DNA of 64,000 bases from Propionicimonas paludicola (GTDB lineage Bacteria > Actinomycetota > Actinomycetes > Propionibacteriales > Propionibacteriaceae), in assembly GCF_002563675.1 (NCBI RefSeq), contig NZ_PDJC01000001.1:1550001-1614000 (forward strand). Direction: 5' to 3'. Every line of letters starts with the position of its first letter. Within the stretch, counting starts at the first letter, position 1. The position numbers were made by a program, and so were the translations under genes. Shown one piece after another: positions 2,597-16,100 of this stretch. The notes beneath the pieces were generated by a model that did no database searches, was not told where the DNA came from, and saw only the letters and a list, made by a program, of their open reading frames with translations.

Positions 2597-3869
2597 GTTC
2601 ACCTCTGCCGTCTTCCAGAACGAGTTCCTGCCCGACGGGGGCACGGACGTCAACGCGATCGTCACCATCCGCTGCACCGGCGCCGGCGAAGCCGGACGCA
2701 CCGGACGCGGCGACGCCGGCGAGATCGTCGTGGTGGACACCTCCGGTTCGATGGGCGTCACCAACATGCAGGCCGCCAAGCAGGCCGCCATGGTCGCGCT
2801 GGACAACATCCTCGACGGCACCTACTTCGCCGTGGTGGCCGGCAACCACAAGGCGTACCTGGCCTACCCGATCGTCCAGACCGGCGCCGGGATGGTGCGA
2901 ATGGATGCCAACACCCGGGCCGAGGCCAAGCGGGCCATCAGCTTCTTCCGGGCTGAGGGTGGCACTGCCATGGGCACCTGGCTGAACCTGTGCCGAGCGC
3001 TGTTCGACTCGATCGGCAACCTGGGCAACAAGCACGTGATCCTGCTCACCGACGGTGAGAACCACAACGAGACCCCGACTCAGCTGGATCAGGCAATTCG
3101 CGCCTCGGTCGGCCAGTTCCAAGTAGATGCCCGCGGCATCGGCGTCGACTGGAAGGTCGCCGAGATCCGCAAGATCGCCCAGGCCCTGCTGGGCAGCGTC
3201 GACATCATCGGCGACCCGAGCCGGCTGAGCGCCGAGTTCGCCTCGCTGATGCGCAACTCGATGGCCCGGGGTGTGGCCAACGCCGATCTGCGGGTCTGGA
3301 TCCCGCAGGGTGCCCAGGTCATGTTCATCCGTCAGGTCTCGCCGTCGGTGGAGGATCTGACCCACCGCGGCGTCCCGGTCAACCAGCTCACCATGAGCTA
3401 CCCGACCGGCGCCTGGGCCGACGAGGAGCGCGACTACCACATCGCCGTCCGGCTGGCCGCCAAGACGGTCGGCCAGGAGCAGCTGGCTGCCCGGGTTCAG
3501 CTGGCGGTCGGTGCCGAGTTGCTCACTCAGGGCCTGGTCAAGGCCAAGTGGTCGGCCGACACCAACCTCACCGCCCAGATCAACCCGGAGGTCGCCCACT
3601 ACACCGGGCAGGCCGAGCTGGCCCAGGTGATCCAGGAGGGCCTGGCCGCCAAGGCCGCCGGGGACGAGGCCACGGCCACCACCAAGCTGGGCCGGGCCGT
3701 CCAGCTGGCCACCGAGACCGGAAATGCCGAGGCAACGGCGAAACTGCGCAAGGTGGTAGACATCTCCGACGCCAGGACGGGTACCGTTCGGTTGAGGAAG
3801 GCAGTCGACAAGGCCGACGAGATGGCCCTGGACACCGCCTCCACGAAGACGACGCGAATCAGAGGCTGA
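2589..3869 (+). CDS. von Willebrand factor A (VWA) domain protein of the kinase/phosphatase operon
   Basis: 426 aa. The frame is open far upstream, but ATG 2589 is chosen because GGAG at 2575-2578 sits 10 nt before it and MAEF is a natural N-terminus; ATG 2580 is too close to that SD. The VWA domain has an intact MIDAS motif DTSGS (Asp50-Ser54), GGTAMGTWL and LLTDGE. The C-terminal third is helical, lysine/alanine-rich and ends basic. There is no signal peptide or TM segment, so it is probably cytoplasmic. VWA domains of this type act as metal-dependent scaffolds; placed between a PP2C phosphatase and an FHA protein, and behind a kinase, it resembles the TerY-type VWA of TerY-P triads. The function is inferred from context only. 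Confidence 0.85.
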   Translation: MAEFTSAVFQNEFLPDGGTDVNAIVTIRCTGAGEAGRTGRGDAGEIVVVDTSGSMGVTNMQAAKQAAMVALDNILDGTYFAVVAGNHKAYLAYPIVQTGAGMVRMDANTRAEAKRAISFFRAEGGTAMGTWLNLCRALFDSIGNLGNKHVILLTDGENHNETPTQLDQAIRASVGQFQVDARGIGVDWKVAEIRKIAQALLGSVDIIGDPSRLSAEFASLMRNSMARGVANADLRVWIPQGAQVMFIRQVSPSVEDLTHRGVPVNQLTMSYPTGAWADEERDYHIAVRLAAKTVGQEQLAARVQLAVGAELLTQGLVKAKWSADTNLTAQINPEVAHYTGQAELAQVIQEGLAAKAAGDEATATTKLGRAVQLATETGNAEATAKLRKVVDISDARTGTVRLRKAVDKADEMALDTASTKTTRIRG

Positions 3870-3870
3870 G

Positions 3871-4710
3871 ATGGCAACTTGTCCTGCAGGGCATCCGAGC
3901 AACCAGGCCGACTTCTGCGATGTCTGCGGACTTCCGATCGGCGGTGAGCCGGTCGCGGTCGCGACCGATGCCGCCGACCAGCCGGCCGAGACGCTGAGCT
4001 GCCCGAACTGCTCCACTGCGAATGTGGCCGATGCACTGTTCTGCGAGAACTGCGGCTACGACTTCACCACCGGCACGCTGCCGGCCAGCCCGGACGCCGA
4101 GGTGGTGACCCCGCCGGCACCGGCCGAGGCCGAGACCGATCAAGCTGCTGCCCCGTCCCCGAGCGAGGCCGACGCCGCCGCCCCGTCCCCGAGCGAGGCG
4201 GAGCCCACGCCCGCGGCGCCGGTCGCGGAGGCGTCCACCCCGGTGAGCGCCACGCCGTCGCCGACCACGGCCCCGACGGTCCTGAAGCGTCCGCCGGTGG
4301 AGTGGATCGCCGAGCTATGGATCGACCCGGACTGGTATGCCGCCCAGGGCTCCACTGACCCGCTGCCGTCGCCCGGCCTGCCGGACATCGTCCCGCTGAT
4401 CAAGCCCAGTTCGCTGATCGGACGGGTCTCGCACAGCCGGGGCATCTTCCCGGACGTCGACTGCGAACTCGACACCGGCTGCAGCCGTCGGCACGCCATG
4501 CTGACCACCGACGGCACCCGCTGGTGGGTGGAGGATCTGAACTCGGCCAACGGCACTTTCGTGGGTGCGGCGGCCGGTCCGCTGCCGGCCATGCCGATCC
4601 CCCAGGGGCGGGTGGAACTGGCCGCTGGCCAGCGGATCTACCTGGGCGCCTGGACCCGGATCGTGATTCGCAAGGCCACCCCGGACGAGCAGGAAGCCTT
4701 CGCCGGCTGA
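3871..4710 (+). CDS. FHA-domain protein with double zinc ribbon
   Basis: 279 aa, starting 1 nt after the VWA stop. The N-terminus holds two zinc-ribbon-like motifs (Cys4/His8/Cys16/Cys19 and Cys44/47/58/61). A low-complexity Pro/Ala/Ser/Glu linker (about 70-135) follows. The C-terminal FHA domain (about 180-270) carries the phosphothreonine-binding signature: LIGR, CSRRHA and LNSANGTFVG. It is probably the phospho-reader of the operon, binding a target phosphorylated by the PknG-like kinase, by analogy with the PknG substrate GarA, although it is much longer than GarA and the zinc ribbons are extra. The linker contains a 30-bp tandem duplication. Confidence 0.88.
   Translation: MATCPAGHPSNQADFCDVCGLPIGGEPVAVATDAADQPAETLSCPNCSTANVADALFCENCGYDFTTGTLPASPDAEVVTPPAPAEAETDQAAAPSPSEADAAAPSPSEAEPTPAAPVAEASTPVSATPSPTTAPTVLKRPPVEWIAELWIDPDWYAAQGSTDPLPSPGLPDIVPLIKPSSLIGRVSHSRGIFPDVDCELDTGCSRRHAMLTTDGTRWWVEDLNSANGTFVGAAAGPLPAMPIPQGRVELAAGQRIYLGAWTRIVIRKATPDEQEAFAG
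4140..4199 (+). repeat. 30-bp tandem repeat in the FHA-protein linker
   Basis: Two adjacent 30-bp units (4140-4169 and 4170-4199) share an identical 20-base core, giving the peptide APSPSEA twice. It is in frame, so gain or loss of a unit would change linker length by 10 residues without a frameshift. Confidence 0.8.
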
Positions 4711-5695: not shown

Positions 5696-7239
5696 CCGAC
5701 ATCACCGAAACCGACCTGCCTGCCCCGGCAGCCCTGCCCAGCTTCGCTGAGCTGGGCGTGATCCCCGAGATCGTCGAGGCGCTGGGCACGCTGGGCATCG
5801 AAACCCCGTTCCCGATCCAGGCGCTGGCGATCCCGATTGCCATCACCGGCACCGACATGATCGGCCAGGCCCGCACGGGCACCGGCAAGACCTTCGCCTT
5901 CGGGATCAGCCTGCTGCAGCGGATCACCGTCCCCACCGACCCCGGCTATGACGAGCTGGCCGTCCCCGGCGCCCCGCAGGCGCTGGTGATGTGCCCGACC
6001 CGCGAGCTGGCCCTTCAGGTGACCCGCGACCTCGAGGTGGCCGCGACCGTCCGCAAGGCCCGAGTGCTCACCGTCTACGGCGGTGTCGGCTACGACACGC
6101 AGCTGGACGCGCTCGCCGAAGGTGTGGACGTGGTGGTCGGCACCCCCGGACGCCTGCTCGACCTGGCCAACAAGCGCAGCCTGAACCTGTCCCAGGTGAA
6201 GGTGCTGGTGCTGGACGAGGCTGACGAGATGCTCGACCTTGGCTTCCTGCCCGATGTTGAGCGGCTGATCAGCAAGACCCCGAAGACCCGGCAGACCCTG
6301 CTGTTCTCCGCGACCATGCCGGCCGCCATCGTGGCCCTGGCTCGGATGCACCTGAACCAGCCGGTGAACGTCCGCGCCGAGACCCACGATGCGCAGCTGA
6401 CCGTCCCGGACACCACCCAGTTCATCTACCAGGCCCATGACCTGGACAAGCCGGAGATCGTCGGCCGGATCCTTCAGTCCCCGCACTGCACCCGCACCAT
6501 GATCTTCACCCGCACCAAGCGGGCCGCGCAGCGCCTGTCCGATGAACTGATGGATCGCGGCTTCCACGCCACTTCGATCCACGGCGACCTCAACCAGGTG
6601 GCCCGCGAGAAGGCGCTGAAGAAGTTCCGTGAGGGCAAGGTCTCGGTGCTGGTCGCCACCGACGTGGCCGCCCGCGGCATCGACATCACCGACGTCAGCC
6701 ACGTGATCAACTACGAATGCCCCGACTCGGAGATGACCTACGTCCACCGGATCGGACGCACCGGCCGGGCCGGCGCCAAGGGCATCGCGGTCACCCTGGT
6801 CGACTGGGCTGACGTGACTCGCTGGAAGATGATCAATCGCATTCTCGAGCTGGACTTCACCGAGCCGCCGGAGACCTACTCGACCTCTGCGCACCTGTTC
6901 GCCGACTTGGATATCCCAGCCGGCACTCGCGGCCGGCTGGCTGAGCCGATCGAGCGCGAGCACCGCGAGCTTCGTCCGAGCAAGGACGCCCACAAGCACC
7001 ACAAGGACAAGGACCGGGACAAGGGCACCGAGGTGGCCCGCGCCGAGCGTCCGCCCCGGGATCGCTCCCGGCGGCGGCTGCGCAACGGTGAGCCCGTGGA
7101 CGGCACCGCGACCACTACCGTCGAGGCCACCGCGACCGCGTCCGAAGGAAGCCCGGCCGAAGGCTCCGATCGTCCGCGTCGTCGGCGTCGGCGCGGCCGT
7201 TCCGGCGGCGGCGCTGCTGCTCCGGTCAGCGAGAGCTGA
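5692..7239 (+). CDS. DEAD-box ATP-dependent RNA helicase
   Basis: 515 aa if started at CTG 5692. The Q motif needs the Phe in SFAELGV, about 17 residues before GIETPFPIQ; that Phe lies upstream of the first in-frame GTG (5758), so the protein must start earlier. The frame is closed by TAA at 5680, and the only plausible start between is CTG 5692 with AAGG (5681-5684) 7 nt before it. Motifs: ARTGTGKT (Walker A), PTREL, TPGR, DEAD, SAT, ARGID and HRIGRTGRAG. A basic Arg-rich tail (final 80 residues) is typical of RhlE/CsdA-like actinobacterial helicases acting on rRNA or mRNA structure. Its end overlaps the convergent membrane-protein gene by 14 nt. Confidence 0.92.
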   Translation: MTDITETDLPAPAALPSFAELGVIPEIVEALGTLGIETPFPIQALAIPIAITGTDMIGQARTGTGKTFAFGISLLQRITVPTDPGYDELAVPGAPQALVMCPTRELALQVTRDLEVAATVRKARVLTVYGGVGYDTQLDALAEGVDVVVGTPGRLLDLANKRSLNLSQVKVLVLDEADEMLDLGFLPDVERLISKTPKTRQTLLFSATMPAAIVALARMHLNQPVNVRAETHDAQLTVPDTTQFIYQAHDLDKPEIVGRILQSPHCTRTMIFTRTKRAAQRLSDELMDRGFHATSIHGDLNQVAREKALKKFREGKVSVLVATDVAARGIDITDVSHVINYECPDSEMTYVHRIGRTGRAGAKGIAVTLVDWADVTRWKMINRILELDFTEPPETYSTSAHLFADLDIPAGTRGRLAEPIEREHRELRPSKDAHKHHKDKDRDKGTEVARAERPPRDRSRRRLRNGEPVDGTATTTVEATATASEGSPAEGSDRPRRRRRRGRSGGGAAAPVSES

Positions 7240-8592: not shown

Positions 8593-9876
8593 TCACGCCG
8601 AATGAGCAACTTCTGGCTGAGTCGAGGGCGCATCGGGCTCGTCGATGGGCGTGAAGTCCCACATGGCCCGGTGCCGCAGCGCGATCACCGCCGGAACCGC
8701 CAGGCAGATGGCCGCTCCGCAGAACAACCAGGTCACCGAGAAGTGCAGCACCCAACCGGCCAGCATCTGGGAGATCGGGCCCAGCCCGTACATCGACAGC
8801 ATCAGCACCGACATCACCCGGCCCAGGAAGGGCTTGGGCGTCATCTGCTGCAGCAAGGTGATCACGTTGATCGACAAGAAGCCGTTCCCGATCCCGCCGA
8901 TCACCATCAGCGCCACGGCCACCCAGGTGTTGTCCACGAAGCCGATGGCGGCATAGATGACCCCGAGGAACGGAAAGATGGCGAAGCCGATCCAGCCCAG
9001 TTGCCGGGAGCTCGGACGCCAGGAGCCGGCCCCGGCCATCCCGATCAGGTTGCCGGCCGCATAGCCGGACAGCACCGCCCCGAAGGCCGCAGCACCTTCA
9101 GTCAGCCGCTCGGCGGCCAGCACCGGCAGGCCGACGAACACCGGCCCGGTGAGCATCAGGTTGGCCAGCGCGATCACGATCACCAGGGTGCGGATCGTGG
9201 TGTCCCGCCAGACGAAGCTGAGGCCGTCGGCGATGTCACGCAGTGGATGCCGGTCCGAGCCGAAACCGGCGACCGGACGCATCAGGCCCAGGGTGATCAC
9301 TCCGAACGCGAAGCTGGCCGCGTCCACTGCGAAAGCGAAGGCGATCCCGGTCATCCCGGCCGGCGTCCCGGCCACATCGTGGGCAAGCAGCGCGATGATC
9401 GAGCCGGCCAGCGCCGGGCCGACGAACTGCGCGGCCTGGTCGGCGATCATCATCAGCGAGTTACCGCCGGCCAGCTGCCGCTCCCCCACGACGCGCGGCA
9501 AGGTGGCCTCTGCGGCCGGCAGGAAGAAGCCCGAGATCAGCCCGAAGCCGAGGGCCAGGGCGTAGATCATCCACAGCTGGACCGTGCCGGTGGCCACCGC
9601 GATCGCGATCCCGGCGGCGATGCCGAACCGGAGGACGTCCGAGCCGATCATCAACAGCCGTGGTGAGACCCGGTCGGCGATGGCGCCGCCGAACAGCATC
9701 ACTAGTGCCCGTGGAATGCCGGCCAGAGCCATCACCAGGCCGAGCTGGAGCGGGTCTCCGGTCAAGGCCAGGACCAGCCACGGCAGGGCAATCAGATGGA
9801 ACTGGTCGCCGAGGTGACTGACCGCTTGGCCCATCCAGAGCAGTCGAAATTCCCGATTCTTCAGTGTTGTGAGCAT
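8593..9876 (-). CDS. MFS transporter (EntS/MFS_3-like efflux family)
   Basis: 427 aa, about 12 TM segments, the usual MFS size. The N-terminus (LKNREFRLLWMGQAVSHLGDQ) and motif A-like loop GGAIADRVSPR between TM2 and TM3 are typical of MFS_3/EntS-type exporters. It is the second gene of a TetR-led operon (31 nt after tetR), so it probably exports a toxic compound or siderophore-like ligand sensed by the TetR protein. The substrate cannot be read from sequence. Confidence 0.9.
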   Translation of the reverse strand: MLTTLKNREFRLLWMGQAVSHLGDQFHLIALPWLVLALTGDPLQLGLVMALAGIPRALVMLFGGAIADRVSPRLLMIGSDVLRFGIAAGIAIAVATGTVQLWMIYALALGFGLISGFFLPAAEATLPRVVGERQLAGGNSLMMIADQAAQFVGPALAGSIIALLAHDVAGTPAGMTGIAFAFAVDAASFAFGVITLGLMRPVAGFGSDRHPLRDIADGLSFVWRDTTIRTLVIVIALANLMLTGPVFVGLPVLAAERLTEGAAAFGAVLSGYAAGNLIGMAGAGSWRPSSRQLGWIGFAIFPFLGVIYAAIGFVDNTWVAVALMVIGGIGNGFLSINVITLLQQMTPKPFLGRVMSVLMLSMYGLGPISQMLAGWVLHFSVTWLFCGAAICLAVPAVIALRHRAMWDFTPIDEPDAPSTQPEVAHSA

Positions 9877-9907
9877 GGTTCTCCCCCGAAATGGCGAAAT
9901 GTGAAAG

Positions 9908-10570
9908 TCAGGCGGTGAGCGTCCCGGCCCGCTGAGAAGCCAGCAGTCCGGTGATCAGCGCACGCAGGGTGGCCGCGAACTCGGCCTCCGAGCCGAGGTA
10001 GTCTCCTTCGGCGAATAGGCGGTGCAGGTGCGGGAAGGTCTCGGCCGACAGGTCGGGGAGCCCTCCATCATCAGCGCCTTCAGCGGCGCGCTCGTCGTGG
10101 AGGGCGTGAATGGTGGTCAGGCCGATCACGCTCTGCCCAATGGCATCCAGGGCCAACAGCGCTTCGATGGCCGAAAAGCCGGCCTCGAACAAGATGCCGA
10201 CCATGATCTCGACCCCGGCCAGCTGAGCTGGGGTACGCATGGAGCGTCCAGCCACCAGCGGCAAGGCACGCGGGTGGACCAAGAGGATGCGCCGTAGCTC
10301 GGTCGCGGCCGCCATCAGCCGATCCTCGATGCTGGCGGACGGGTCGTCGGCGCTGAGATCCAGGTCCGACATGATCTTGTCGACGATCAGGCTGTGCAGG
10401 GCGTCCTTGCTGGGCAGGTGGTAGTACAGCGTGCTGGCGTCGACCCCGAGCCGGGTGCCCAGGGTGCGCATGCTGTGACCGTCCAGGCCGGTCTCGTCGA
10501 TCAGCTCGAGGGCGGCGGTGACGATCTGCTCGCTGGTCAGCGTCTGCCGTCCGGCCTTGCGTGGGCTCAT
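9908..10570 (-). CDS. TetR family transcriptional repressor (TetR_C-type)
   Basis: 220 aa. The N-terminal helix-turn-helix covers about residues 10-60 (LTSEQIVTAALELIDETG, then MRTLGTRLGVDASTLYYHLPSK), with the YYH variant of the recognition helix found in the TetR/TetR_C class. The C-terminal ligand/dimer domain is helical. The SD AAGGAG lies about 8 nt before the ATG. It is first in the operon that includes the MFS pump, and its own promoter contains two perfect 13-bp palindromes, indicating autorepression and co-regulation of the pump. Confidence 0.93.
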   Translation of the reverse strand: MSPRKAGRQTLTSEQIVTAALELIDETGLDGHSMRTLGTRLGVDASTLYYHLPSKDALHSLIVDKIMSDLDLSADDPSASIEDRLMAAATELRRILLVHPRALPLVAGRSMRTPAQLAGVEIMVGILFEAGFSAIEALLALDAIGQSVIGLTTIHALHDERAAEGADDGGLPDLSAETFPHLHRLFAEGDYLGSEAEFAATLRALITGLLASQRAGTLTA

Positions 10571-10924: not shown

Positions 10925-12052
10925 TCAGTAGACCATGTTCATGGCCTGGCGCACCTCGTCGAGGGTGGCGTTTCCGACCTCGTTGGCGTGCGCATTGCCG
11001 GTCCGGAGCACGTCCATCAGGTAGCCGGGATCGGCGGCCAGCTCGACCCGGCGCGCCCGGATCGGAGCGAAGAACTCGTTCACCGCATCGGTGACGACCT
11101 TCTTCAGGGTGCCGCCACCGCCGTCGCCGATCTCCTCAGCGATGGCCACCGGATCACCTCCGGTGCACAGCGAGGCCAGCATCAGCAGGTTGGAGACCTC
11201 GGGACGGTTGGTCGGATCGTAGGTGATGTGTCGATCGGAGTCGGTGACTGCCTTCTTGATCAGCTTGGCCGTGGTGTCGGCGTCCATCCCGATCTCGATC
11301 ACATTGCCCTTGGACTTGCTCATCTTGGTGCCGTCCAGGCCGAGCACCGTGGACGCCTTGGAGAGCAGCGCCTCGGCCTGCGGGAACACCGGACGGGTCA
11401 GATCCACGCGTCCATAACGCTCGTCAAAGCGGCGGGCCACCACCCGGGTCTGCTCGAGGTGCGGCAGCTGGTCCTTGCCGACCGGCACCAGGTTGGCCTT
11501 GCAGAACAGGATGTCGGCGGCCTGGTGCACCGGGTAGGTGAGCAGCAGGCCGGACATCGGACGATCGCCGGTGGCCTCCAACTCGGCCTTCACCGTGGGG
11601 TTACGGCGCAGTTCGGCGTCGGTGACCACCGAGAGGAACGGCAGCAGCAGCTGGTTGAGCGCCGGCACGGCCGAGTGGGCGTAGATGGTCGTGCGCGCCG
11701 GGTCCAGGCCGATGGCCAGGTAGTCGGCCATCATGCTCAGCACCCGGTCGTGGATCGGGCCGGTGCCATCGCGGTCGGTGATCACCTGGTAGTCGGCGAT
11801 CAGGATGAAAGTCTCAACCCCGGCGTTCTGGATGCGCACCCGGTTGGCCAGCGACCCGAAGTAGTGGCCGATGTGCAGGTTCCCGGTGGGACGGTCGCCG
11901 GTCATCACCCGGAAGCCGGACGGATCCTTGGCGATCTGCTCCTCGATCTCGATGCTGCGCGCCTCGGTGCGTCGCAACGACGCGTCCGAGGTCGACTGGG
12001 CGAGATCCTCGCCGGAATCGTCGCTCGCCATCGTGGCCGGGTGATCGGACAT
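10925..12052 (-). CDS. trpS: Tryptophanyl-tRNA synthetase
   Basis: 375 aa. Class I aaRS signatures are clear: GNLHIGHYFGSL (HIGH) and KMSKSKGN (KMSKS), with GDRPTG before the first as in TrpRS. It charges tRNA-Trp with tryptophan in the cytoplasm. The start at ATG 12052 (MSDHPATM) has AGGAG 6 nt upstream; a longer in-frame extension to 12124 would run through the attenuator and is rejected. An N-terminal extension of about 45 residues before the catalytic core is low-complexity. The gene is preceded by a Trp-rich leader peptide and competing hairpins, so expression is probably controlled by tryptophanyl-tRNA supply. Confidence 0.96.
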   Translation of the reverse strand: MSDHPATMASDDSGEDLAQSTSDASLRRTEARSIEIEEQIAKDPSGFRVMTGDRPTGNLHIGHYFGSLANRVRIQNAGVETFILIADYQVITDRDGTGPIHDRVLSMMADYLAIGLDPARTTIYAHSAVPALNQLLLPFLSVVTDAELRRNPTVKAELEATGDRPMSGLLLTYPVHQAADILFCKANLVPVGKDQLPHLEQTRVVARRFDERYGRVDLTRPVFPQAEALLSKASTVLGLDGTKMSKSKGNVIEIGMDADTTAKLIKKAVTDSDRHITYDPTNRPEVSNLLMLASLCTGGDPVAIAEEIGDGGGGTLKKVVTDAVNEFFAPIRARRVELAADPGYLMDVLRTGNAHANEVGNATLDEVRQAMNMVY

Positions 12053-12093
12053 TGACTCTCCTAGGTTGACGCAGCCCGGTTCAGGCATGCGAA

Positions 12094-12155
12094 ACGGCCG
12101 CCTGTTTCCGACGGCCGTGGGCATGGATCAAGCGGTTCGGGCCGTCGTTACGGCC
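12094..12155 (-). promoter_or_regulatory. trpS attenuator: competing 1:2, 2:3 and 3:4 hairpins
   Basis: On the minus strand: segment 1 GGCCGT (12155-12150) pairs with ACGGCC (12145-12140); segment 2 CGACGGCC (12147-12140) can instead pair over 8 bp with segment 3 GGCCGTCG (12116-12109); segment 3 ACGGCCG (12118-12112) pairs with segment 4 CGGCCGT (12100-12094), followed by a short U run. Segment 1 overlaps the last codons of the leader peptide, just after two Trp codons. This is the architecture of ribosome-mediated attenuation. Confidence 0.8.
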
Positions 12156-12180
12156 GCCACCAGCAGATCCTCGTTTGCAT
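12148..12180 (-). CDS. trpL: Tryptophan-rich leader peptide of trpS (MQTRICWWRP)
   Basis: A 10-codon ORF, ATG 12180 to TAA 12148-12150, with tandem UGG codons at positions 7 and 8, followed directly by segment 1 of the attenuator. Two adjacent Trp codons in ten are very unlikely by chance and are the hallmark of trp leader peptides. No SD is seen, but TAGATT lies 6 nt before the ATG, so the message is probably leaderless. When charged tRNA-Trp is scarce, a ribosome stalled at the Trp codons would cover segment 1 and favour the 2:3 antiterminator. Confidence 0.8.
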   Translation of the reverse strand: MQTRICWWRP

Positions 12181-12186
12181 GGCGTC

Positions 12187-12192
12187 AATCTA
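12187..12192 (-). promoter_or_regulatory. -10 element (TAGATT) of the trpS leader transcript
   Basis: TAGATT ends 6 nt before the leader ATG (12180), which places transcription start at or next to the A of ATG, the usual leaderless arrangement in actinobacteria. No convincing -35 hexamer is seen. Confidence 0.55.
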
Positions 12193-12226: not shown

Positions 12227-13075
12227 CTAGGCCACCCCGCCGCGCTCGTCGATCCGGCGCTGGATTTCGGCCAGCACCCCCGGGGCGGTCAGGTTGCAGC
12301 CGAGCTCGTGATCCATCTTGCCCAGGCCGTGATAGTCCGACGAGCCGGTGGCCAGCAGCCCCAGCGATCCGGCCAATGCCCGCAACTCGGTTCGGGTGTC
12401 ATCGTCATGGTCCTGATGGTCGACCTCCAGCCCGTCCAACAGCCCGGAGCCGGCCAGCTCGGCCAGCACCGCGGCATCGAGCAGTTCGCGGCTCTGCCGT
12501 CCCCAGGGATGGGCGATCACCGCCGCTCCCCCGGCTTCCCGGATGAGCTGCAGTGCGCGCCGCAGCGGCACCCCGTAGCGCGGCACGAAGATCGGACGAT
12601 CGTCGGCCAGCCAGCCGTCGAAGGCCTCCCGACGATCAGCCACGTAGCCCAGTTCGACCATGGCGTCGGCCAGATGCGGACGCCCGACCGACGGGCTCTC
12701 CCCTACATGCCGGGCCAGCACCTCGGCCGGCACCGGCATGCCGACCGCGGCCAGCCGTTCCAGCATCTGCGGGATCCGGCCGGTGCGCCCGGCCCGGACC
12801 AGCTCCAGTTCGGCCAGCAGCCCCGGATGATCCGGACGCGGCCCGTAGCCGAGCAGGTGGACGCTCTGGCCGTCCAACTCGGCGGAGATCTCGACTCCGC
12901 GGAGCAGCTCCACCCCGGTCGTGGTCGCTGCCTGAGCGGCCTCGTCCAGCCCGTCGAAGGTGTCGTGGTCGCACAGCGCGATCGCCGACAGTCCGGCCGC
13001 GGCGGCGTTCACCAGCAACTCGGTGGGCGAATCGGTGCCGTCGGACACCGAACTGTGCGTGTGCAGATCGATCAT
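12227..13075 (-). CDS. PHP-domain phosphoesterase (YciV/RNase AM-like)
   Basis: 282 aa. The start is set at ATG 13075 so the protein begins MIDLHTHSSVSDG, the first metal-binding motif of PHP domains. Further motifs are LCDHDT, VEISAE, IAHPWG and SSDYHG near the C-terminus, all typical of the TrpH/YciV group, which hydrolyses 3',5'-nucleoside bisphosphates or short RNA 5' ends. It follows the glutamate dehydrogenase gene by 29 nt on the same strand, so co-transcription is likely, although no metabolic link is obvious. It lies just upstream of the separately promoted trpS leader. Confidence 0.88.
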   Translation of the reverse strand: MIDLHTHSSVSDGTDSPTELLVNAAAAGLSAIALCDHDTFDGLDEAAQAATTTGVELLRGVEISAELDGQSVHLLGYGPRPDHPGLLAELELVRAGRTGRIPQMLERLAAVGMPVPAEVLARHVGESPSVGRPHLADAMVELGYVADRREAFDGWLADDRPIFVPRYGVPLRRALQLIREAGGAAVIAHPWGRQSRELLDAAVLAELAGSGLLDGLEVDHQDHDDDTRTELRALAGSLGLLATGSSDYHGLGKMDHELGCNLTAPGVLAEIQRRIDERGGVA

Positions 13076-13104
13076 CACCGGACCATCCTGACAGCCAGGC
13101 CCGC

Positions 13105-16100
13105 TCAGCGGCATTCAGCCAGCAGTGAGCGCACCTGGCCGAGGCCGACGTTCATCTTGGCCACATCGGGAGTGCCCTCGGCAACCTGGCGGATCATGGC
13201 GATCCGGGCGGACGCCTGCGGCGTCTCGCTCAGCCAGGCCGACAGCGCCTGCTCAGCCGCTGTTCCCGGCGTGACCCGGGAGGCCAGTTGCTCGGTGAGG
13301 TCGGCGTGCGCGGCCAGCAGCTCGTCGCGGAGCGCAGCCCGGGCCATGGCGTCCCAACGGACCTGCCGGGGCAGTTCGTCCACTCCACCGAACAGCAGAT
13401 CCAGACCGAGCGCACCGGAAATCGCGTAGTGCAGCTCGGCGATCTCCAGCGGATCACGGCCCAGCCGATGCCCGACCTGGACGATGCTGAGCAGCGTATG
13501 CGCTTGTCCGGCCGCACCCAGTGGCCGAGCCAGCTCCTCGGGGACGCCGGCGGCCAGCCAGGCCGACGCCTTGCGGGCGGCCGCCTCCTGGTCGGCACCG
13601 GTCAGCAACTCGGGCAGCCTGGGTCGCAGCGCGGCCACCGCCGGGCCGTACTCCTCGATGGCCGAGACGATGTCGAGTGAGCCACGGCTGCGGTGCAGCA
13701 GCCACCGGGTGGCCCGCTCGACCATCCGCAGCAGCACCACCCGCAGCTCGGTGCCCAGCTCGGCGGTCAGCCCGTTCAGCCGACGGAGCCGGACCTCGTC
13801 CAGCCCCACGTTGAAGATCGCCCGCGAGGCCAGCTGAGCCCGGATGATGTCGGCCACCTCGGCCCCGGTCTCGGTGGACAGCCGGTGATAGGCCGTGATG
13901 CCTTGGGAGTTCACGAAGCGGTTCACCGCCACCGTGGTGATGATCTGCCGAGCCAGCCGATGCGAGGGCATCACCGCGGCGTAGCGCTGCCGCAACGGCT
14001 CCGGGAAGTACTGGACCAGCCGGTCGGCCAAGTAGGGATCATCGGGCAGATCGGAGGCCAGCACCCAGCGTTTGAGCGCGATCTTGGTGTAGGACAGCAG
14101 CACGGCCAGCTCCGGACGGGTCAGCCCACTGCCGGCGGCGATCCGGGCGGCCATCTCGGCCGAGCCGGGCAGCCCCTCGAGGTGCCGATCCAGCAGCCCG
14201 TCGGCCTCCAGGACCCGCATCCACTCCTCGTGCTGGCCGGCCAGCCGGAACCGGCGATACATGGCATTGGCCAGGGCCAGGTTCTGGTCGAAGTTGTGCG
14301 ACAGCACCAGGGCAGCCACTTCGTCGGTCATCGAGGCGAGCAGTTCCTGCCGCTCCGGCCCACTCAGCGGGGACGGCGCGCTGGACAGCAGGATCTTGAT
14401 GTTGACCTCGTGATCGGAGGTGTCGACCCCGGCCGAGTTGTCGATGAAGTCGGTGTTGATCCGACCGCCGGCCTGGGCGTACTCGATCCGTCCAGCCTGG
14501 GTGAAGCCGAGGTTTCCGCCTTCGGCCACGCACCGGGCGCGCAGCTCACGTCCGTCCACCCGGAGCGCGTCGTTGGCCTTGTCACCGACCTGCGCGGAGG
14601 TCTCGGTGGACGCCTTCACGAAGGTGCCCACCCCACCGTTGAAGAGCAGGTCGACCGGCGCTCGCAAGATTGAGGCGACCAACTCGTTGGGAGTGAGCTG
14701 GACGACCTGCTCGTCCAGGCCGAGCACCCGGCGGATCTCCGGGCCGATCGGCACCGACTTGGCGTCACGGCGGAAGACCCCACCACCGGCCGAGATGCCC
14801 TGGTGGTCGGCCCAGGTCGAGCCGGGCAGCGCGAACAGCCGCCGGCGCTCGGCGAAGGAGGCCGCCGGATCGGGGTCCGGGTCGATGAAGATGTGGACGT
14901 GGTTGAACGCGGCGACCAGCCTCAGCCGATCCGAGGCCAGCATCCCGTTGCCGAAGACGTCCCCGGCCATGTCACCGATCCCCACGCAGGTGAACTCGTC
15001 GCGGGCCGGATCCAGACCCATCTCGGCGAAGTGTCGCTTCACCGACTCCCAGGCGCCGCGGGCGGTGATCCCCATCACCTTGTGGTCGTAGCCGGCCGAG
15101 CCGCCGGAGGCGAAGGCGTCCCCCAGCCAGAAGCCGCGCTCGGCCGAGATCTCGTTGGCGTAGTCGGAGAAGGTGGCCGTGCCCTTGTCGGCGGCCACCA
15201 CCAGGTAGGGATCCTCGCCGTCGTAGCAGAGCACCCCGGGCGGAGCGATCACCTGCTGGTCGACGATGTTGTCGGTCACGCTGAGCAGCGCCGCCACGAA
15301 CAGTCGGTAGCAAGCCACCCCCTCGGCCAGCCAGGCCGCCCGATCCCGTGGATCCGGCAGCCGCTGCGGGACGAAGCCGCCCTTGGCGCCGACCGGGACG
15401 ATCACAGTGTTCTTCACCAACTGGGCCTTGACCAGGCCGAGCACCTCGGTTCGGAAGTCCTCGGGACGATCGGACCAGCGCAACCCACCCCGGGCCACCG
15501 GCCCGAACCGCAGATGGACGCCGTGTACCCGCGGTGAGTAGACGAAGACCTCATACTCCGGACGCGGGGCCGGCAGCAGCTCCAGTTCGGCCGGCAGCAG
15601 CTTCAGGGCGATGGTCGGTGAGTCGGTGAACGCATTGGTCCGGACGCTGGCATGGATCACTGCAGCGAAGGCGCGCAGAATCCGGTCGTGGTCGAGGCTG
15701 GCCACTGCGTCCAGCTGACCGGTCAGCTGGGCCTCCAGGCCGGCCAGGGTCTCGGCCCGGGAGCCGTCCGCTCCGCTCCAGTTCGGGTCGAACTTGGTGG
15801 CGAAGATCTCGGCCAGGCCGGCGGCCAGGGACGGGTTCGCGACCAAGGCTGCGGCCAGGTAGGGCTGGCTGAACGAGAGTCCGGCCTGCTGCAGGTAGCG
15901 GGAGACCGCGCGCAGCCAGGACACCTGCCGCCAACTCAGCCCAGCCAGGATCACCAGCTGGTTCAGCTGATCGGCCTCACACAGATCGGTCCAGGACGCC
16001 ACGAAGGCCTCGGCGAACCGGGCCCGGGTGTCGGCGGTCCACTCCCCGGCCAGCCGCAGGCCGAAGGCGTAGACCCGGACCGGGGTGCCCCGCAGATCCC

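Follow-up and report, generated by a model that had tools for sequence, protein, structure and literature searches.

A tryptophan-codon leader and predicted transcription attenuator precede the sole tryptophanyl-tRNA synthetase gene of Propionicimonas paludicola

How is trpS, the gene for tryptophanyl-tRNA synthetase (TrpRS), controlled in a bacterium in whose genome only one such enzyme is found? We addressed this question in a 64-kb stretch of Propionicimonas paludicola DNA (NZ_PDJC01000001.1, positions 1,550,001-1,614,000), here called the window, to which all coordinates below refer. An earlier note, made from the letters alone, had proposed that a Trp-codon leader peptide and attenuator control trpS at this locus. 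The gene lies on the minus strand (10925..12052), as do all elements of the site, and encodes a protein of 375 aa that matched TIGR00233 with 223 bits (cut-off 176.75), confirming that the gene in question is a synthetase gene. The genome encodes two PF00579 proteins, one of which is a TrpRS by TIGR00233. We conclude that the element in front of trpS is very probably a classical Trp-codon, ribosome-mediated transcription attenuator.

The leader is a short open reading frame (ORF), MQTRICWWRP* (12148..12180), which can be read directly on the minus strand as ATG CAA ACG AGG ATC TGC TGG TGG CGG CCG TAA, from the ATG at 12180 to the stop codon at 12150-12148, with 95 nt between the stop and the trpS start. 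Its two adjacent UGG control codons (12157..12162) stand directly before segment 1 (GGCCGU, 12150..12155). A -10-like box, TAGATT (12187..12192), ends 6 nt before the leader ATG and fits a leaderless leader transcript. Segment 1 pairs with ACGGCC of segment 2 (CGACGGCC, 12140..12147) in helix 1:2 (6 bp), and segment 2 pairs over its full length with GGCCGUCG (12116-12109) of segment 3 (12109..12118) in helix 2:3 (8 bp), the putative antiterminator. Segment 3 in turn offers ACGGCCGUC (12118-12110) to segment 4 (GGCGGCCGU, 12094..12102, followed by UUCGCAUG), forming helix 3:4 (9 bp), the putative terminator hairpin. Because segment 2 is common to 1:2 and 2:3, and segment 3 to 2:3 and 3:4, the three helices are mutually exclusive. 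The earlier note had described this site with correct coordinates, including the position of the box and of the Trp codons, and all three of its hairpins can form; it had called their complementarity exact, which is true of 1:2 and 2:3 and slightly overstated for 3:4, where one pair is U-G.

The leader folds better than its shuffles. The full leader reached -62.4 kcal/mol (z -3.5; 1 of 200 shuffles equally good), and the part from leader to terminator reached -42.0 kcal/mol (z -3.0; 0 of 200). The fold also revealed an outer stem, GGAUC (12166..12170) with GAUCC (12125..12129), which lengthens the 1:2 hairpin and encloses the UGG codons. At gathering thresholds, Rfam gave zero matches in the window, neither to the T-box, whose signature the earlier note had likewise called absent, nor to Trp_leader, the enterobacterial family; the T-box and other known RNA families were rejected on this ground.

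In the mechanism that we propose, transcription would start at or beside the leader ATG, as the -10-like box suggests. When Trp-tRNA is plentiful, the ribosome would pass both UGG codons to the stop and mask segment 2, leaving segment 3 free for segment 4, and the 3:4 hairpin would halt RNA polymerase before trpS. Under a shortage of charged Trp-tRNA, translation would instead stall at the UGG codons; since segment 1 starts right after them, the stalled ribosome would mask segment 1 and free segment 2 for segment 3, and the resulting 2:3 helix would block the terminator and allow trpS to be transcribed. With no ribosome on the leader, 1:2 would form together with the outer stem, which joins the first leader codons to the spacer between segments 2 and 3, and 3:4 would terminate. 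We infer that the ribosome stalls, that polymerase terminates and that trpS responds to how far Trp-tRNA is charged.

To follow the helices among relatives, 61 actinobacterial leaders with two adjacent Trp codons were compiled, all selected for TGGTGG; 38 of them precede a TrpRS at least 55% identical to that of the window, and 23 precede one less than 40% identical. Alignment A1 comprises 17 leaders, selected in the same way, and the UGG pair is invariant in it. Helix 3:4 led in both pairing and covariation. In A1 it was paired in 96.7% of 150 cells and 7 cells had double changes, neither figure being reached in any of 500 shuffles; across the 61 leaders it was paired in 98.2% of 547 cells, with 35 double-change cells against shuffle maxima of 92.1% and 12. 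For helix 2:3 in the same 61, 91.6% of 427 cells were paired and 20 showed double changes, again with neither figure reached in 500 shuffles, and one of its pairs is G-C in 35 leaders and A-U in 20. The register of helix 1:2 shifts between clades. For 1:2, 2:3 and 3:4 alike, duplexes with a leader's own partner were better than exchanged ones (0 of 5000 permutations as good, each), the own duplex beating the mean of the others in 53, 50 and 57 of the 61 leaders, respectively. The outer stem was examined with a test that is loose, as it takes in the UGG codons, and whose result is inflated by relatedness: own 5' parts with own spacers summed to -843.3 kcal/mol, whereas 5000 exchanges averaged -697.0 and went no lower than -780.0, and 44 of 61 leaders beat the median of the exchanged combinations while 17 did not. 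The letters of this stem vary by clade (GGAUC/GAUCC in the window, GGGUC/GACCC in L003 and L004, CAGGUG/CACCUG in L049).

The motif [TC]ANNNT occurred 5-8 nt before a start codon of the leader in 61 of 61 cases, with a distance of 6 or 7 nt in 60, on a background of 0.05 per random position and a mean of 1.9 candidate starts per leader. This placement would be the pattern expected of leaderless leader transcripts, and the distance would fit a leaderless start of the actinobacterial trpL2 type. In 60 leaders (L038 omitted), the stop stands 4-5 codons after the first counted Trp codon in 41, eight in 18 and seven in one. It falls within the 1:2 loop in the window and after segment 2 in the eight-codon form, for example L023; either position should separate segment 2 from segment 3 during unstalled translation. 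What the sequences themselves show is a leader with its two UGG codons, a promoter-like box, and three helices that exclude one another and co-vary.

We then asked how widely the leader occurs. A covariance model, R1, was built from the 17 A1 leaders with the 3:4 helix and sequence only, and was run over 394 class genomes and 197 family genomes; downstream genes were checked for the best 30 matches of each search and for a few weak ones of the family. R1 scored the window site at 81.6 bits (E 4.4e-16), and the second-best place in this genome reached E 0.0026. Since the window sequence belongs to the training set, the independent evidence lies in the matches in genomes outside it. Among the best 30 class matches, a TrpRS gene lay directly downstream on the same strand in 26 (one being the window's own), trpE in two and neither in two. 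All of the best 30 family matches lay upstream of a TrpRS gene, and by contig and place 14 of these were training sequences and 16 were not. L104 and L089 scored low with R1 (18.0 and 13.9 bits). A post-terminator motif, GGCNNTTTYGCRTG, had two matches in the genome compared with one for its reversed control, and is not a general feature.

Among at least 110 loci with relatives of the window TrpRS (one of the two source lists being the best 80), two of the 110 having no upstream sequence, a TGGTGG leader was found in 20 loci, corresponding to 18 distinct genes, and three Micropruina loci have a version with one Trp codon. Culturable carriers include Propioniciclava flava (L040) and, with the one-Trp form, Micropruina glycogenica (L036). 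Seven of the 23 readable upstream regions of trpS in the same genus bear the leader. The conservation among relatives on which the earlier note had staked its reading was found across several families, with compensatory changes, and is patchy within the genus. Several of the same-genus loci free of the attenuator (L006-L008, L010-L012, L014-L022, L026) show by eye a TANNNT-like box no more than about 50 nt from the trpS start, which would therefore leave no room for an attenuator. In genus g15, with genomes of about 2.3-2.6 Mb, longer leaders such as MTTAPANATSWWRRWVRH were seen by eye before trpS in L226-L229, and no Trp pair was seen by eye in L230, from a fifth genome of that genus.

Several observations count against an attenuator here, or against the strength of its support. 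The 61 leaders were selected for TGGTGG and are related to one another, which inflates all of the permutation counts. In A1, where helix 2:3 varies little, its covariation did not exceed that of shuffles (191 of 500), and helix 1:2 showed little covariation; A1 was insufficient for these two helices, and the leader set was therefore widened to 61. When segment 1 was masked, 16 of 17 equilibrium folds nonetheless kept helix 3:4, so that 2:3 would have to act during transcription. Two of the best 30 class matches, L141 and L144, have no TrpRS gene and no trpE nearby. In keeping with the earlier note, the U-run is short, with just UU and then C after the last base of the 3:4 stem; in 60 leaders, the 8 nt counted from that last base contain 1 to 6 T. 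Intrinsic termination may consequently be weak or require helper factors, and termination is the least supported step of the mechanism. Such a short run, with a U content that varies widely among relatives, would also suit a Trp leader that regulates without an intrinsic terminator, either with 3:4 as a pause or Rho-assisted site or by acting on trpS translation. We regard this as unlikely, though it deserves to be kept in view: the first rank of 3:4 in pairing and covariation speaks against it, and 31 nt separate the end of the terminator stem from the Shine-Dalgarno sequence of trpS (AGGAGA, 12057..12062), which stays uncovered, an arrangement that speaks against a purely translational switch.

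The leader ORF might instead be kept for another reason, such as ribosome reinitiation that aids trpS translation, with the UGG codons and hairpins incidental. Ribosomes have been proposed to reinitiate at leader genes, with an actinobacterial peak at 10-11 bp (PMC4833913); the 95 nt between leader stop and trpS ATG do not fit this distance, and the UGG pair and the co-varying exclusive helices would be left unexplained, making this reading very improbable. That a short ORF with two UGG codons arose by chance in GC-rich intergenic DNA would agree with the absence of the leader from 16 of the 23 readable same-genus loci and with the frequency of R1 matches near E 0.01 in such genomes (at E 0.01, 133 of 394 class and 87 of 197 family genomes have one), most of the weak ones being chance in our judgement. 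Yet the same architecture stands directly before a TrpRS gene across families, in 25 of the 29 best class matches besides the window's own, and compensatory changes accompany it. Chance is scarcely credible for the window site, and for the leader family as a whole it was rejected on the conservation before TrpRS genes and the compensatory changes. The UGG pairs and stems kept across several families, with those changes, support the Trp attenuator interpretation that the earlier note had put forward.

The copy on which the leader stands differs between the family and the wider class. Among the best 30 leader-bearing family genomes, 27 have one TrpRS match and three have two (G497, G476, G584). 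In contrast, the best TrpRS and trpE matches outside the family come from 27 class genomes, of which 25 have at least two TIGR00233 matches (some of those in G182 and G156 being fragments). In 23 of the 25, the copy with the leader is the lower-scoring one; in G419 and G411 it is the higher-scoring of two. No R1 match at E <=0.1 was found in any locus of the 23 top-scoring copies (L176-L198). The remaining two class genomes have one TIGR00233 match each; here (L142 and L143, in G389 and G274 of family f20) R1 finds leaders with two Trp codons before trpE and not before trpS. The leader thus controls the sole TrpRS in P. paludicola, whereas in the class genomes checked it is mostly on an extra copy, which makes its position here the less expected one. 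For the trpE gene of this genome, which follows hisI (named by eye), no UGG leader was seen in 1 kb read by eye; trpD, trpC, trpB and trpA were not examined. Leaders of genus g36 stand on an extra TrpRS copy that is 34-36% identical to the window's in eight of nine loci and 59% in one. We take this genus to be probably Streptomyces, since its leaders read MTTRTCTQLWWAA and the like, resembling S. lividans trpL2.

A quick tree of 122 TrpRS sequences (57 with leader, 65 without) separated three main groups: the window type with 74 rows (39 with leader), an extra-copy group with 16 (all with leader) and a housekeeping group with 25, of which one, from G500, has the leader. Sampling was non-random, rows being partly picked for the leader (12 of the 16 in the extra-copy group); L210, L214, L216 and L220 were fetched as second copies regardless of what lay upstream, and 4 of 4 have a UGG-pair leader, three with R1 E <0.001. 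L221 was scored leader-positive by the UGG rule, though R1 finds none at E 1. L025 was wrongly extracted and has a very long branch, L118 has a second long branch, and the 17 leader-state changes on the tree are descriptive only. The stray rows are L025, L095, L099, L108, L118, L200 and L201.

The G500 locus (L206, G500:C5:80400-88000, 3446-4576) has a TrpRS of another lineage. The window, G513, G448 (with a one-Trp leader) and G500 share the order GDH-PHP-leader-TrpRS (GDH named by eye). The TrpRS of G513 is 74.6% identical to that of the window; that of G500, which has the same genus code as G513, is of the housekeeping type and only 31.7% identical. The G500 leader, MHERLRWWRP*, is close to those of its congeners and scored 67.6 bits with R1. 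In G538 the order is GDH-PHP-TrpRS, with a TrpRS 87% identical to the G500 enzyme, and we found no leader. The simplest reading of these sequences is that the TrpRS gene was replaced in place, and that the leader survived in G500 but disappeared in G538. The G538 locus makes an assembly error in G500 unlikely.

The logic proposed for trpS is that of the Escherichia coli trp operon leader, with its UGG pair and four segments. Unlike the window element, the E. coli leader controls a biosynthetic operon, has its own Shine-Dalgarno sequence and has a long U-run. Going by its title, Vecchione and Sello 2010 reportedly concerns an auxiliary antibiotic-resistant TrpRS gene, trpRS1 of S. coelicolor, under ribosome-mediated transcriptional attenuation; the window trpS differs from it as the sole TrpRS gene. 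Korolev et al. 2015, also by title, is said to treat Trp-dependent attenuation in Actinobacteria, and some of the present leaders may be listed there. Ribosome-mediated attenuation of a synthetase gene is not new in Actinobacteria (PMC1262725, PMC8079986). In S. lividans, according to the part covered, a leaderless trpL2 precedes trpS (SLIV_21112/SLIV_21110) with no uridine-enriched stretch (PMC8079986). The window resembles that system in the short Trp leader before trpS, the hairpins after it and the few U, and differs in having two Trp codons where the trpL2 leader, MMTRTCTQLWRAA, has one. Attenuators were also predicted before trpS in some Streptomyces, with S. avermitilis trpS2 named, and the trp attenuators in the same part of that report have complementary GGCC-type triples (PMC1262725). 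The window likewise has a predicted attenuator before a TrpRS gene; the report concerns Streptomyces, and the part covered has no trpS of Propionibacteriaceae. Sources covered in part further describe TrpRS1 as indolmycin-resistant (PMC9437257), as is SGR_3809, one of two TrpRS genes of S. griseus (PMC6804068). The literature searched, mostly outside subscription journals, held no report of a trpS attenuator for Propionibacteriaceae and none of a TrpRS exchange under a leader, which is weak evidence of novelty.

The upstream neighbour of the attenuator is a PHP-domain gene (12227..13114, minus strand) for a phosphoesterase, with 3',5'-nucleoside bisphosphate phosphatase and RNase RNM as its best NCBIfam matches, both below their cut-offs. 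Its E. coli relative presumably also adjoins a trp leader, possibly by coincidence. On the other side, ORFs resembling an MFS transporter and a TetR regulator (8593-10570, minus strand, named by eye) lie between trpS and a DEAD-box helicase match (5857-7023). The helicase is nearer to trpS in G500 and G513, and the MFS/TetR pair may be an insertion in the window.

The mechanism is known, and the window site adds a member to it, not a mechanism. With it, a regulatory device known in Streptomyces reaches the only TrpRS of a genus of Propionibacteriaceae, and several families of Actinobacteria besides, and the leader alignments are good enough for searching, the window element itself having no Rfam match at threshold. 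What adds interest is the position before a lone TrpRS gene, the pattern across the class and the apparent gene exchange in G500. The attenuator is seen before deeply separate TrpRS lineages, namely the window type, the extra-copy type and once the housekeeping type, and may be a unit that outlives its gene: an inducible accessory TrpRS lineage would have become the sole TrpRS in Propionibacteriaceae, bringing its attenuator along, and many species would later have dropped the attenuator. We hold this history to be plausible, if somewhat short of an even chance. If it is true, an essential gene came under control by scarcity of its own product. Why an essential synthetase is attenuated in some cells only could be studied through two natural comparisons, the patchy presence of the leader and the single apparent exchange of TrpRS beneath a retained one.
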